Source: Comamonas antarctica (GTDB lineage Bacteria; Pseudomonadota; Gammaproteobacteria; Burkholderiales; Burkholderiaceae_C). From it: a DNA stretch of 64,000 nucleotides. The notes beneath the pieces were generated by a model. That model was not told where the DNA came from. It made no database searches and worked only from the letters and a program-made list of their open reading frames with translations. A program made the position numbers and the translations under genes. Position 1 is the stretch's first letter, and each line of letters starts with the position of its first letter. Of the stretch, positions 4,761 to 35,874 are shown in pieces. Location of the stretch: contig NZ_CP054840.1 of NCBI RefSeq assembly GCF_013363755.1, positions 3,465,501 to 3,529,500 on the forward strand. The letters are read 5' to 3'.

Positions 4761-5630
4761 TCACCGGTAGACGGAGGGTTCGCCCTCGGGCCGGGTCTTG
4801 AAGCGCTTGTGCACCCAGTAATACTGCTCCGGCATGGTGTTGATCCAGTGCTCGAGTTCGCGGTTCATGCGCGCCGTGTCGGCCACCGCGTCGTCCGTGG
4901 GGAAGTCCTGCCAGGCCGGGGTGAGCTGGGCGACATAGCCTTCGGGCGTGAGCCGCGTGTACATGCCTATGACCTTGGCCCGGCCCAGGCGCGCGAAACG
5001 CGACAGCGAGGGAATGGTCGCCGCCGGAACGCCGAAGAAGGGCACGAACACCGAATCGTTCCTGCCGAAGTCCATGTCGGGCAGCAGGTACAGCAGCCCG
5101 CCGTGGCGCAGGCTGGAGATGATGGGCTTGACGCCATCGGCGCGGTTGAGCATGCGCACGTCGCCAAAGCGCTGGCGCCCGGTCATGAACCAGTCGTCGA
5201 TATCGGGATTGGGATGGGTCGAGAAGATCGAGGTGAAGGCGCGCGTCATGTGCAGCGGCAATGTCAGCCCGCCCGCATCCATGCCGTAGAAATGCGGCGC
5301 GAACACGATGATCGGCGTGTTGCCATCGAGTTCGTGCAGCGCGCCTTCGAGCTTCACGCGCGAGCGCACCACCGATTCGGGCGCCGACCAGAGCCAGCCG
5401 CGGTCCAGCCAGGCTTGGCAGAACACGACGAAATTCTGCTGCGCCAGCGCCTTGCGCCGCTCGGGTGACAGATCGGGAAAACACAGCTCGAGATTGCGCA
5501 GCGCAATGCGCCGGCGCGGCACGGCCACCACGAACAGCAGCCGCCCGAGCAACCAGCCCAGCGCGCGCAGCCAGCGCAGCGGCAGGCGCCCGAGCATGGC
5601 CATCAGCCAGATACCGAAGCGCGCGCTCAT
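4761..5630 (-). CDS. Lipid A biosynthesis acyltransferase (LpxL/HtrB family), copy A
   Basis: The 289-residue product belongs to the LpxL/LpxM (HtrB/MsbB) family, which adds secondary acyl chains to the lipid A precursor at the inner face of the inner membrane. A hydrophobic N-terminal helix (about residues 8-36) anchors it. The catalytic HX4D motif is HFYGMD at residues 113-118, followed by a conserved LPDMDFG segment that is typical of the family. It overlaps the upstream paralogue by ATGA, so the two are translationally coupled. Which acyl position or chain each enzyme uses cannot be told from sequence. Confidence 0.92.
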   Translation of the reverse strand: MSARFGIWLMAMLGRLPLRWLRALGWLLGRLLFVVAVPRRRIALRNLELCFPDLSPERRKALAQQNFVVFCQAWLDRGWLWSAPESVVRSRVKLEGALHELDGNTPIIVFAPHFYGMDAGGLTLPLHMTRAFTSIFSTHPNPDIDDWFMTGRQRFGDVRMLNRADGVKPIISSLRHGGLLYLLPDMDFGRNDSVFVPFFGVPAATIPSLSRFARLGRAKVIGMYTRLTPEGYVAQLTPAWQDFPTDDAVADTARMNRELEHWINTMPEQYYWVHKRFKTRPEGEPSVYR

Positions 5631-6499
5631 GGGGCCACCTGCCCGCCAGTGGACGCCGCGCTGGCGGCCTGCTCGGCACGCGGCTGCTTGTAGCGCGCAT
5701 AGCCCCAGAGGTATTGCGACGGGCTGCGGCGGATGGTCTGCTCCATGGCCTGGTTGAGCTGCAGCACAGCGGTTTCCAGCGAATCTGACAAAGGCAAGGG
5801 CAACTCCTCGAAATGCATCGTATAGCCGCGCCCCCAGGAGCGGCGCTCGCAGCGCGCGATGACGACGATCGCGCCGGTCTGCTGCACCAGCCGCGCGGCC
5901 AGCGTCATGGTGTAGGCGTCACGCCCGAAAAACGGCGACCACAGCCCCTGCCCCTCGGGCGGGACCTGGTCGGGCAGCAGGCCCACGGCCTCGCCGCGGC
6001 GCAGCGCCTTGATCATCTGGCGCACGCCCGACAGGTTGGTGGGCACGGCCTGCACGCCAGGGCGGTTGCGCGCGGTCTCCATGAGGCGGGCCAGCCAGGC
6101 CTGGCGCGCCGGGCGGTAGAGGATGGTGATCGGGCCGAACTGCGCGTGCCAGCGGTGCGCGGCGGCCTGCACCGACAGCTCGAAGCAGCCCAGGTGCGGT
6201 GTCAGGAAGACAATGCCCCGCCCCTGCGCCCAGGGCCGTTCGACGCGCTCGGGTTCGATCATCTCGCAGTGCGGCGGCTCGGGACGCAGCCACAGGCGCG
6301 GCAGCTCGGCCACCATGCGACCCGCATGGCCCACGGCCGCGCGCACGTCGGCGAAGCGGTAGCCCGCCTGGCGCGCATTGGCCAGGAAACGCCGGCGGTA
6401 GGTGCCCGAGGCCAGGAATACCACCCACCCCAGCACCGCACCCACACCATGCAAAAGCCACAAAGGCAGCAACGAGAACAAACGAAACAGGCTTGGCAT
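5627..6499 (-). CDS. Lipid A biosynthesis acyltransferase (LpxL/HtrB family), copy B
   Basis: This second LpxL-family acyltransferase has 290 residues, an N-terminal hydrophobic anchor (LLPLWLLHGVGAVLGWVVFL) and the active-site variant HX4E at HLGCFE, residues 102-107. A later LLPDQVPP segment matches the family's conserved LPDQ region. It is the first gene of the two-gene unit and is read divergently from metK. Only 12 bases separate its start from the metK riboswitch, so its promoter must lie within the DNA encoding that RNA. The pair probably adds two different secondary acyl chains; that division of labour is inferred. Confidence 0.92.
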   Translation of the reverse strand: MPSLFRLFSLLPLWLLHGVGAVLGWVVFLASGTYRRRFLANARQAGYRFADVRAAVGHAGRMVAELPRLWLRPEPPHCEMIEPERVERPWAQGRGIVFLTPHLGCFELSVQAAAHRWHAQFGPITILYRPARQAWLARLMETARNRPGVQAVPTNLSGVRQMIKALRRGEAVGLLPDQVPPEGQGLWSPFFGRDAYTMTLAARLVQQTGAIVVIARCERRSWGRGYTMHFEELPLPLSDSLETAVLQLNQAMEQTIRRSPSQYLWGYARYKQPRAEQAASAASTGGQVAP

Positions 6500-6505
6500 T
6501 AAAAT
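6500..6505 (+). promoter_or_regulatory. Probable -10 element of metK
   Basis: TAAAAT lies six bases before the first stem of the SAM-II-like RNA, so a transcript starting about seven bases downstream (around 6511-6512) would begin exactly at that stem. No convincing -35 hexamer is seen. The element overlaps the start codon of the divergent acyltransferase gene. Confidence 0.5.
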
Positions 6506-6510
6506 AGAAG

Positions 6511-6566
6511 GGTCGCTGAGTTAAATGAGCAACTTGCAGGGCGACGTTAAACAACTCTGCTAAAGC
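6511..6566 (+). promoter_or_regulatory. SAM-II (SAM_alpha) riboswitch upstream of metK
   Basis: The leader can fold into the H-type pseudoknot of SAM-II riboswitches. P1 is GTCGC (6512-6516) with GCGAC (6541-6545). P2 is GCAGG (6536-6540) with TCTGC (6556-6560), including one G-U pair. The positions conserved in the class are present: a GA-TTAAA-type first loop (6518-6524), CTTGCAG before the 3' strand of P1, GTTAAAC after it, and the terminal GCTAAA (6559-6564). The ligand of this class is S-adenosylmethionine, the product of the downstream enzyme, so feedback repression of metK is expected. A covariance search would settle it. Confidence 0.82.
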
Positions 6567-6583
6567 GTTCGCCGGAGCTCCGT

Positions 6584-6609
6584 CAGCTTGGGCAACGCCC
6601 CAAATGCTG
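6584..6609 (+). other. Stable hairpin between the metK riboswitch and its ribosome binding site
   Basis: CAGC (6584-6587) pairs with GCTG (6606-6609), and inside it TTGGGC pairs with GCCC plus CAA around a short loop. There is no T-run, so it is not a classical terminator. It ends seven bases before the AGGAG Shine-Dalgarno at 6616-6620 and could be part of the expression platform. Confidence 0.55.
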
Positions 6610-6628
6610 GAACACAGGAGTTTATTCA

Positions 6629-7813
6629 ATGGCGAACGATTTTCTTTTCACTTCGGAATCTGTCTCTGAAGGACACCCCGACAAGGTGGCCGACCAGATC
6701 TCCGACGCGATCCTGGATGCCATTTTCACCCAAGACCCCCATTCCCGTGTGGCAGCCGAGACGCTGACCAACACCGGCCTGGTGGTTCTCGCCGGCGAAA
6801 TCACGACCGGCGCGAATGTCGACTACATCCAGGTGGCGCGCGACACCATCAAGCGCATCGGCTACGACAACACCGAATACGGCATCGACCACAAGGGTTG
6901 CGCCGTGCTCGTCGCCTATGACAAGCAGAGCCAGGACATCGCCCAGGGCGTGGACCACGCCAGCGACGACGAGCTCAACACCGGCGCCGGCGACCAGGGC
7001 CTGATGTTCGGCTACGCCTGCGACGAGACGCCCGAGCTGATGCCCGCGCCGATCTATTACGCGCACCGCCTGGTCGAGCGCCAGGCCCAGCTGCGCAAGG
7101 ACGGCCGCCTGCCGTTCCTGCGCCCCGACGCCAAGAGCCAGGTGACGATGCGCTATGTCGACGGCAAGCCGCACAGCATCGACACCGTGGTGCTGTCGAC
7201 GCAGCACAGCCCCGACCAGTCGGAAACCGCGACCCGGATGAAGGCCAGCTTCACCGAAGCCATCATCGAGGAAATCATCAAGCCGGTGCTGCCCAGCGCG
7301 TGGCTGCAGGACACCAAGTACCTGATCAACCCCACGGGCCGCTTCGTCGTGGGCGGCCCGCAAGGCGATTGCGGCCTGACCGGCCGCAAGATCATCGTCG
7401 ACACCTACGGCGGCGCCTGCCCGCATGGCGGCGGCGCGTTCTCGGGCAAGGACCCAACCAAGGTCGACCGTTCGGCCGCCTACGCCGCGCGCTACGTGGC
7501 AAAGAACATCGTGGCCGCGGGCCTGGCGCGCCAGTGCCAGATCCAGGTCGCGTATGCGATCGGCGTCGCCCGCCCGATGAACATCACGGTCTATACCGAA
7601 GGCACGGGCGTGATTCCCGACGACCAGATCGCCAAGCTGGTGGCCGAGCATTTCGACCTGCGTCCCAAGGGGATCATCCAGATGCTGGACCTGCTGCGCC
7701 CGATCTACAGCAAGACCGCCGCCTATGGCCACTTCGGCCGCGAAGAGCCCGAATTCACCTGGGAAAAGACCGACAAGGCCGCACTGCTGCGCGCTGCCGC
7801 CGGACTGCGCTGA
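6629..7813 (+). CDS. metK: S-adenosylmethionine synthetase
   Basis: MetK makes S-adenosylmethionine from methionine and ATP in the cytoplasm. The 394-residue product has the family's full length. It has the ATP-binding [18 protein letters not shown] segment at the N-terminus, [12 protein letters not shown] in the middle and the phosphate-binding [19 protein letters not shown] region in the C-terminal half. A good Shine-Dalgarno (AGGAG) sits eight bases before the ATG. The leader contains a SAM-II-type riboswitch and a hairpin, so expression should fall when SAM is abundant. A strong terminator follows. The gene is divergent from the acyltransferase pair, an arrangement that is common in related bacteria. 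Confidence 0.98.
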
Positions 7814-35744: not shown

Positions 35745-35874
35745 AAGCGTTACCTGATGTGATTGTATTTTTCAGGCGGACCGCAGGACATTCTTTCTGC
35801 ATCGCACCCTTTGTCTCCTCCACCTCCTCTAATGGTGGATTCAGCCCCAGGCCTTACCGCCTGGGGCTTTTTTT
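35745..35874 (+). ncRNA. Candidate small RNA with CU-rich anti-Shine-Dalgarno motif
   Basis: A -10-like TACAAT (35733-35738) would start a transcript of about 130 bases that ends at a strong intrinsic terminator (35843-35874), 125 bases before the ilvA start. The body contains CTCCTCC-ACCTCCTCT (about 35814-35830), two tandem CCTCC units that can pair with Shine-Dalgarno sequences of mRNAs, as in known CU-rich riboregulators. The -35 box is weak. It may instead be a leader that attenuates ilvA, although no Ile/Leu/Val-rich leader peptide is seen. Confidence 0.5.
35843..35874 (+). terminator. Strong intrinsic terminator upstream of ilvA
   Basis: AGCCCCAGGC (35843-35852) pairs with GCCTGGGGCT (35859-35868) around CTTACC, followed by seven T (35868-35874). 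There is no gene on this strand immediately before it, which supports a short non-coding transcript or an attenuator. The interval 35647-35998 otherwise holds only promoters. Confidence 0.9.

Follow-up and report, generated by a model that had tools for sequence, protein, structure and literature searches.

The leader of metK in the stretch of Comamonas antarctica DNA analysed here (64,000 nt, hereafter the window) carries an element that, judged from its sequence and pairing, is a variant subtype of the SAM-II riboswitch and not a standard member of the class, and that recurs in metK leaders of the Burkholderiales. The variant aptamer most likely binds SAM and would lower the translation of metK when SAM is high. 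A first-pass annotation of the window had proposed an aptamer of SAM-II type in a beta-proteobacterial metK leader; for this organism, Comamonadaceae-like in that its MetK resembles those of named Acidovorax, Comamonas and Paracidovorax loci, the proposal is supported by the leaders of relatives, by covariation and by the placement of the promoter. The element had also been described as a clear copy; the SAM-II-type aptamer stands, but it is a variant whose score under the Rfam SAM_alpha model lies at background.

Architecture of the metK leader

A leader of 117 nt lies between the start of P1 (6512) and the metK start codon. From 6512 it reads GUCGCU-GAGUUA-AAU-GAGC-AAC-UUGCAG-GGCGAC-GUUAAACAACU-CU-GCUAAA-GC-GUUC-GCC, and its parts are the following (window positions).

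6500..6505, + strand: metK promoter, -10 box TAAAAT; 6 nt separate it from P1
6512..6517, + strand: P1 5' strand GUCGCU; both-side changes in four of the six P1 pairs
6518..6523, + strand: L1 third strand GAGUUA (GAUUU in classic SAM-II; G6520 replaces U10)
6527..6530, + strand: 5' strand GAGC of a further P2 segment (P2b), pairing with 6567-6570; covariation
6534..6539, + strand: P2 5' strand UUGCAG; covariation
6540..6545, + strand: P1 3' strand GGCGAC, with the downstream UUCGCC as alternative partner (anti-P1)
6557..6564, + strand: P2 3' strand and pocket, CU and GCUAAA (G42 to A47 in SAM-II numbering)
6566..6574, + strand: shoulder CGUUCGCCG, able to pair, one G-U included, with the metK start at 6630-6638 (UGGCGAACG)
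6567..6570, + strand: 3' strand GUUC of the further P2 segment; covariation
6575..6581, + strand: anti-Shine-Dalgarno (anti-SD) GAGCUCC, predicted partner 6617-6623
6616..6620, + strand: Shine-Dalgarno (SD) AGGAG
6629..7813, + strand: metK, methionine adenosyltransferase, 394 aa (TIGR01034, 583.8 bits, cut-off 309.4)

The full pairing consists of P1 (6512-6517 with 6540-6545) and P2 (6534-6539 with 6557-6560, 6562 and 6563). Both stems of the first-pass annotation, P1 at 6512-6516/6541-6545 (GUCGC/GCGAC) and P2 as GCAGG 6536-6540 with UCUGC 6556-6560, are present, but G6540 belongs rather to P1, where it forms a sixth pair, U6517-G6540; among 90 relatives this pair is C-G in 64, U-G in 23, U-A in 2 and G-A in 1. 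P2 is extended by U6534-A6563 and U6535-A6562, and a helix overlooked at first, 6527-6530/6567-6570, makes up the further P2 segment. The gap between this segment and the GC/GC pairs of P2 is 5 nt on one side and 6 nt on the other, which equals the spacing of the SAM_alpha consensus in our own reading of its pseudoknot strands, whose pairing Rfam does not draw. The loop sequences GUUAAAC and GCUAAA (6559-6564) occur in the leader as had been claimed.

The -10 box at 6500-6505 was likewise correctly placed at P1. Its T-A-N-A-A-T is invariant in the 16 leaders of set A1, window included, and a -10-like hexamer stands 6-7 nt 5' of P1 in 94 of 121 distinct metK leaders, with counts of at most 2 at control offsets. 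A consensus scan gave no -35 element for the metK promoter and no full sigma-70 match. Placed by the -10 box, the metK transcript start at P1 is probable, and a promoter just 5' of P1 was described for SAM-II in the consulted part of the 2005 discovery paper. A divergent acyltransferase-like gene (named by eye; window 5627-6499, - strand) would start at 6499, adjoining the -10 box, and a metK -35 element would thus fall within its coding sequence.

Scores under the SAM_alpha model

Against SAM_alpha (RF00521), the metK leader scored 18.5 bits (E 0.05; cmscan on 301 bases) relative to a gathering score of 36 bits, which is a detection threshold and not a structural definition. In a genome-wide search it ranked third among the eight matches listed (E 0.20), and SAM_alpha reached the gathering score nowhere in the window. 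The first-pass annotation had named a background-level score under this model as grounds for giving the assignment up, and 18.5 bits is such a score; since the leader alone stands at background, the case rests on the relatives. One relative's metK leader (L286) scored 41.7 bits, above gathering, directly 5' of metK, so that SAM-II before metK occurs in the Burkholderiales by Rfam's own standard. In a mixed test of 20 leaders, a SAM_alpha match at E<=5 was obtained for only one of eight other variant metK leaders (16.6 bits); L321, canonical in appearance, had no match at that level. In the cases tested, the variant subtype is mostly invisible at the current Rfam threshold, and its variant form explains why model-based annotation misses the metK element.

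The best SAM_alpha match in the same genome (L001, 23.3 bits) sits at a terminator-like stretch 5' of a HipA-like frame and was judged by eye to be a chance match.

Occurrence in relatives

A motif of 15 fixed bases taken from the metK leader was searched for in 150 genomes of the family and found in 18, of which 16 are metK leaders of one pattern, the window's included, and two (L019, L023) are not. GAGUUA and GCUAAAG, absent from the motif, were yet present in 16 of the 16 leaders. From these a covariance model, R1, was built, which finds the window's leader, itself one of the 16, at E 2.0e-17 and has matches at E<=0.1 in 203 of 399 Burkholderiales genomes, many of the matches preceding genes other than metK. 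A pattern scan of named genomes returned at least 119 stretches; among the matches listed, metK lay downstream in 69 of 80, the metK-linked ones included loci of Comamonas, Acidovorax, Polaromonas, Roseateles, Polynucleobacter, Dechloromonas and Bordetella, and the 80 loci all look beta-proteobacterial, as judged from their titles. The hits collected number 186 with repeats, in part drawn from among the matches listed: metK lies at most 500 nt downstream in 125, metX in 1 and neither in 60, a count in which the window appears twice (also as L028) and L174, near a contig end, is scored as lacking metK. Of one search, 85 of 91 hits were carried, six being dropped, namely one fragment and the repeats of a single array; another contributed all 86 of its 86, six of them partial with ends extended by hand. 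A class-level search covered 84 of 184 genomes of the class, from which 10 loci were fetched and 9 inspected.

An unselected sample was obtained by searching 110 Burkholderiales genomes for MetK itself (110/110 positive) and taking 400-420 nt 5' of one metK per genome, second MetK matches being left out in three genomes. A descriptor that asks for L1 (with G or U at position 10), UUGC and GCUAA, together with five or more P1 pairs, was passed by 30 of these 110 leaders, compared with 3 of 2200 shuffled leaders and none of 110 reverse complements; by this descriptor, the remaining 80 leaders hold no element. Since the descriptor itself demands UUGC, GCUAA and one of two bases (G or U) at pocket position 10, the conservation of those bases cannot be read from it.

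Copies before metK with long L3 inserts between P1 and GCUAAA were seen at L041, L043, L090, L226, L234 and L236. Rfam has a 'SAM-II long loops' family; L236, the sole long-insert locus scanned, gave no Rfam match.

Covariation of the pseudoknot

Across the Burkholderiales, P1, P2 and the further P2 segment all covary in metK leaders, so the conservation among relatives that the first-pass annotation had proposed to look for is found. In alignment A3, which holds 47 distinct metK RNAs drawn from a set of 90, 94.1% of pseudoknot cells are paired and 8 of 16 pairs have changed on both sides, a number reached in 3 of 500 shuffles. The covariation score is 0.289 versus 0.149 +/- 0.010 after shuffling (none of 500 reaches it) and at most 0.092 for slid structures, although the shuffle controls here and elsewhere ignore the relatedness of the sequences. 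One of five measures, the number of further pair types, was not above the shuffles (18 versus 17.8). In the 90 distinct short RNAs, Watson-Crick cells number 495 of 540 in P1 (shuffle maximum 438), 158 of 168 in the P2 extension (138) and 286 of 360 in the further P2 segment (251), whose outermost pair is poorly kept (52/90). This set was cut by a pattern fixing L1, UUGC and GCUAAAGCG, so that its pocket pairs are present at 100%, and its inner four P2 pairs invariant, by construction; 22 of 112 distinct RNAs were excluded from it for exceeding 64 nt, as were three whose L3 holds a long insert.

A low SAM_alpha score is also what would be expected if there were no riboswitch and a protein-acting conserved leader, an SD hairpin or an sRNA precursor resembled SAM-II by chance. 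Given the covariation of the pseudoknot, the identity of the pocket, the association with metK and the gathering-level SAM_alpha match before metK in L286, such an origin is extremely improbable.

The ligand pocket and the U10 to G change

The SAM-II register was set by the positions in PMC3764141 together with the 2QWY sequence. In PMC3764141, complete conservation within SAM-II is ascribed to U10-U12, U20, U21, G22, C23 and G42-A47, and direct contact with SAM to U11, U21, G22, U44 and A47. The window keeps 12 of the 13 pocket nucleotides, the exception being U10, which is G6520, and it keeps all five of the reported contact residues. G10 is present in 16 of the 16 A1 leaders, window included, in 122 of the 125 metK-linked hits of the biased set (in part from among the matches listed) and in 22 of the 30 MetK-chosen positives, the other 8 of which, L286 among them, have U10. 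Since R1 derives from G10 leaders and the scan pattern called for GAGTTA, the shares of G10 are inflated outside the MetK-chosen sample. The idea that G10 marks metK proved false, G10 being found in 29 of 60 hits with neither metK nor metX.

Owing to this change, the RNA could be SAM-II in shape and yet recognize a different or broader ligand, for instance SAH or another SAM-derived compound. The prevalence of G10 before metK in both samples, biased and MetK-chosen, would agree with this, as would SAM-V, in which, in the source as consulted, only one hydrogen bond connects the counterpart of U10 with the uridine paired to the adenine of SAM. However, the residues reported to touch SAM are all kept, and U10 (8) and G10 (22) alternate before the same gene and in the same architecture, under a descriptor that allowed only G or U; a change of ligand is thus unlikely. 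The interchange among metK leaders of one design is read as a tolerated change with SAM as the ligand throughout, and U10 to G may alter affinity or specificity.

Relation to known classes

The metK leader is like SAM-II (RF00521) in its H-type P1/P2 pseudoknot with covarying P1 and P2, its L1 third strand, its UUGC and GCUAAA pocket strands, its P2 spacing, its promoter just 5' of P1 and the methionine/SAM gene downstream, here metK. It differs in having G for U10, a P2 with two more covarying pairs next to P1, a score far under gathering, no terminator found, an anti-SD and start-codon complementarity downstream, and metK as its target. The consulted part of a 2014 survey reports SAM_alpha only from Rhizobiales and Rhodobacterales, mainly on metY and in some on hom, metA, metX, metC and metW, and states that none was found to regulate metK in beta-proteobacteria (Leyn et al., 2014; PMC4239095). 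No later report on such a regulator was found in the open-access literature, and the element offers a specific candidate for a sizeable share of the beta-proteobacterial genomes that the survey left without one. As such, SAM-II is no novelty in a beta-proteobacterium, since Bordetella bronchiseptica appears in a figure legend of the 2005 SAM-II discovery paper, as far as consulted. That paper already placed the class beyond the alpha-proteobacteria, and the metK copy does not stand alone, as the element recurs in Burkholderiales metK leaders and a second copy, canonical in appearance, lies 5' of metX in the same genome.

The same survey, in the part consulted, describes a beta-proteobacterial metXZ RNA element with a possible two-helix pseudoknot before metX or metZ (Leyn et al., 2014; PMC4239095). 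Both are beta-proteobacterial leaders with a possible two-helix pseudoknot and a methionine gene downstream, whereas the metXZ element lies on metX/metZ with a terminator and has no ligand assigned, and the window copy precedes metK with no terminator found. The metX leader of the same genome (L002 1501-1573; C1:20642-20714) looks canonical, with all 13 SAM-II pocket nucleotides and, by eye, a terminator-like hairpin with a T run; it scores 19.6 bits under SAM_alpha and E 0.009 under model R2. A relative's metX leader (L089), the sole SAM_alpha match among 20 loci scanned, reaches 37.5 bits, above gathering. Because L002 fits the metXZ description with a full pocket and L089 exceeds gathering, the metXZ element, compared here by its description, is probably SAM-II itself.

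SAM-V shares the core fold and translational control and binds SAM in nearly the same way as SAM-II, according to the parts of the sources consulted; there, its SD falls within the short last helix or directly behind it, whereas the SD of the metK leader lies about 45 nt beyond, and the SAM-V family model gave no match to this leader at E<=10. The SAM/SAH riboswitch is likewise a pseudoknot immediately 5' of metK, but it is reported, in the same partial sense, from Rhodobacterales only, and its family model also had no match to the metK leader at E<=10. Further sources, each consulted in part, are PMC6061858, PMC1273637 and PMC2864571.

Expression platform

A terminator filter was passed by 17 of 29 distinct U10 RNAs and 10 of 143 distinct G10 RNAs (shuffled controls, 0/87 and 7/429); among non-metK G10 RNAs it was passed by 3 of 24 distinct ones. 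Control of metK by a terminator was rejected, as no + strand terminator was found in 6420-6700 and the filter was passed by only 7 of 119 G10 metK leaders, some of which are perhaps SD hairpins. U10 RNAs, often with terminators, and G10 RNAs, mostly without, sometimes in one leader, form a natural comparison of transcriptional and translational SAM-II control.

In the metK type, an anti-SD lies directly 3' of the aptamer (in the window, 6575-6581 with 6617-6623). Over 102 distinct leaders, the mean P(unpaired) of the SD is 0.145, versus 0.266 with the intervening leader shuffled. Removal of the aptamer makes no difference (0.145 with it removed versus 0.153 at full length); the SD is predicted to be paired either way, and thus folding gives no demonstration of the switch. 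Taken by itself, the SD hairpin is of unexceptional stability (z -0.45), and the full leader has z -2.10. A pairing of GAGUU in L1 with the anti-SD looks attractive in Comamonadaceae-like leaders and was rejected as an off/on exchange, since by eye it is not kept in the printed leaders.

The shoulder can also pair with the start of metK. Among 57 distinct leaders of the GUUC type, 48 have nine contiguous pairs between the two (G-U allowed), and the mean pairing is 8.4 with their own starts versus 4.7 with starts from the other group; for the remaining 42 leaders the means are 4.3 (own starts) and 5.7 (GUUC-type starts), the start-codon match being absent outside the GUUC type. Codon 2 of GUUC-type genes is Ala in 53 of 56, and GCG in 49 of these 53, whereas across the rest of the same genes 604 of the 2247 Ala codons are GCG, and GCC, the most frequent Ala codon in that part, is never used at codon 2. 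This bias is attributed to GCG completing the shoulder match, although the genes are related and other causes are possible. In the window, the shoulder helix (6566-6574/6630-6638) runs on continuously into the anti-SD helix. In predicted folds, an RNA ending at 6575 forms anti-P1, the shoulder pairing with the P1 3' strand; one ending at 6585 forms neither P1 nor anti-P1, and from 6612 on P1 is formed. For the full leader, P1 with a long hairpin over SD and AUG gives -43.3 kcal/mol, versus -36.4 kcal/mol with anti-P1 enforced.

Proposed mechanism

Translational SAM-II control by SD sequestration is reported from reporter fusions for metA of Sinorhizobium meliloti in the consulted part of PMC9373788. 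For the metK leader, we propose that in the absence of SAM the shoulder would be held by the P1 3' strand as anti-P1 and the start would be open to ribosomes. Binding of SAM would fix P1 and P2 and free the shoulder, which could then close on the start codon beside the anti-SD helix and turn translation off. The clamp step would apply to the window's own branch only; elsewhere, the anti-SD helix alone would remain. Against this sign speaks the further P2 segment, which draws on the same shoulder and alone would favour the opposite one.

Conversely, the same aptamer and ligand could form an ON switch in which the SAM-bound RNA captures GUUC off the start codon and metK translation rises. Positions 6567-6570 take part in both the start helix and the further P2 segment, only one of which can form at a time, and the minimum free energy fold of the full leader, which cannot include the pseudoknot, covers both SD and AUG. 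However, metK makes SAM, so that feedback by SAM is expected to repress; moreover, the further P2 segment has only four pairs, one of them G-U here, the anti-SD would keep the SD paired, and the start match is confined to one branch. Activation is accordingly judged improbable, and repression of metK translation at high SAM is the preferred reading. A broader proposal, conceivable though doubtful, is that the metK subtype is a distinct SAM-II offshoot in which U10 to G alters the affinity for or choice of ligand, the 3' strand clamps the start, and the nine-base shoulder is contested by P1, the start codon and the further P2 segment; the sign in such an offshoot may be reversed, with SAM activating.

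Other RNAs in the window and in relatives

At L036-L039, L044-L048, L066, L074, L138, L154 and L171, SAM-II-like RNAs occur in tandem, with a U10 copy first and a G10 copy after it; the U10 copy passed the terminator filter in 8 of 9 distinct cases tested, and the G10 copy is without a terminator. Downstream of L036, L045, L048 and L074 lie genes for a protein of about 100 aa ('MYDC') and a MATE-family transporter, and three MYDC/MFDC proteins tried had no Pfam match. A SAM-regulated transporter, if true, would be new to us. SAM-II-like RNAs also stand 5' of an AAA ATPase, MoxR-like by eye, at L330, L328 and L068, the first being a tandem by eye; one 120-aa ATPase stretch from L330 had no NCBIfam match.

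Below-gathering matches to RF02424 (Burkholderia sRNA candidate Bp2_287) lie on the strand opposite the SAM-II leader at L286 266-384 (- strand) and L089 1489-1557 (+ strand), with none in L002; judged by these positions, RF02424 may be a wrong-strand copy of the riboswitch leader. The window's only gathering-level Rfam match is a Betaproteobacteria toxic small RNA (RF02278, 70.4 bits, 35812-35874, + strand), and a manganese (yybP-ykoY) riboswitch of 52.4 bits lies near metX in the same genome (L002 722-902). In two relatives, gathering-level SAH riboswitches lie just 3' of metK (L050 139-216 and L097 2452-2563), which places SAM-type and SAH-type sensors around one gene cluster.
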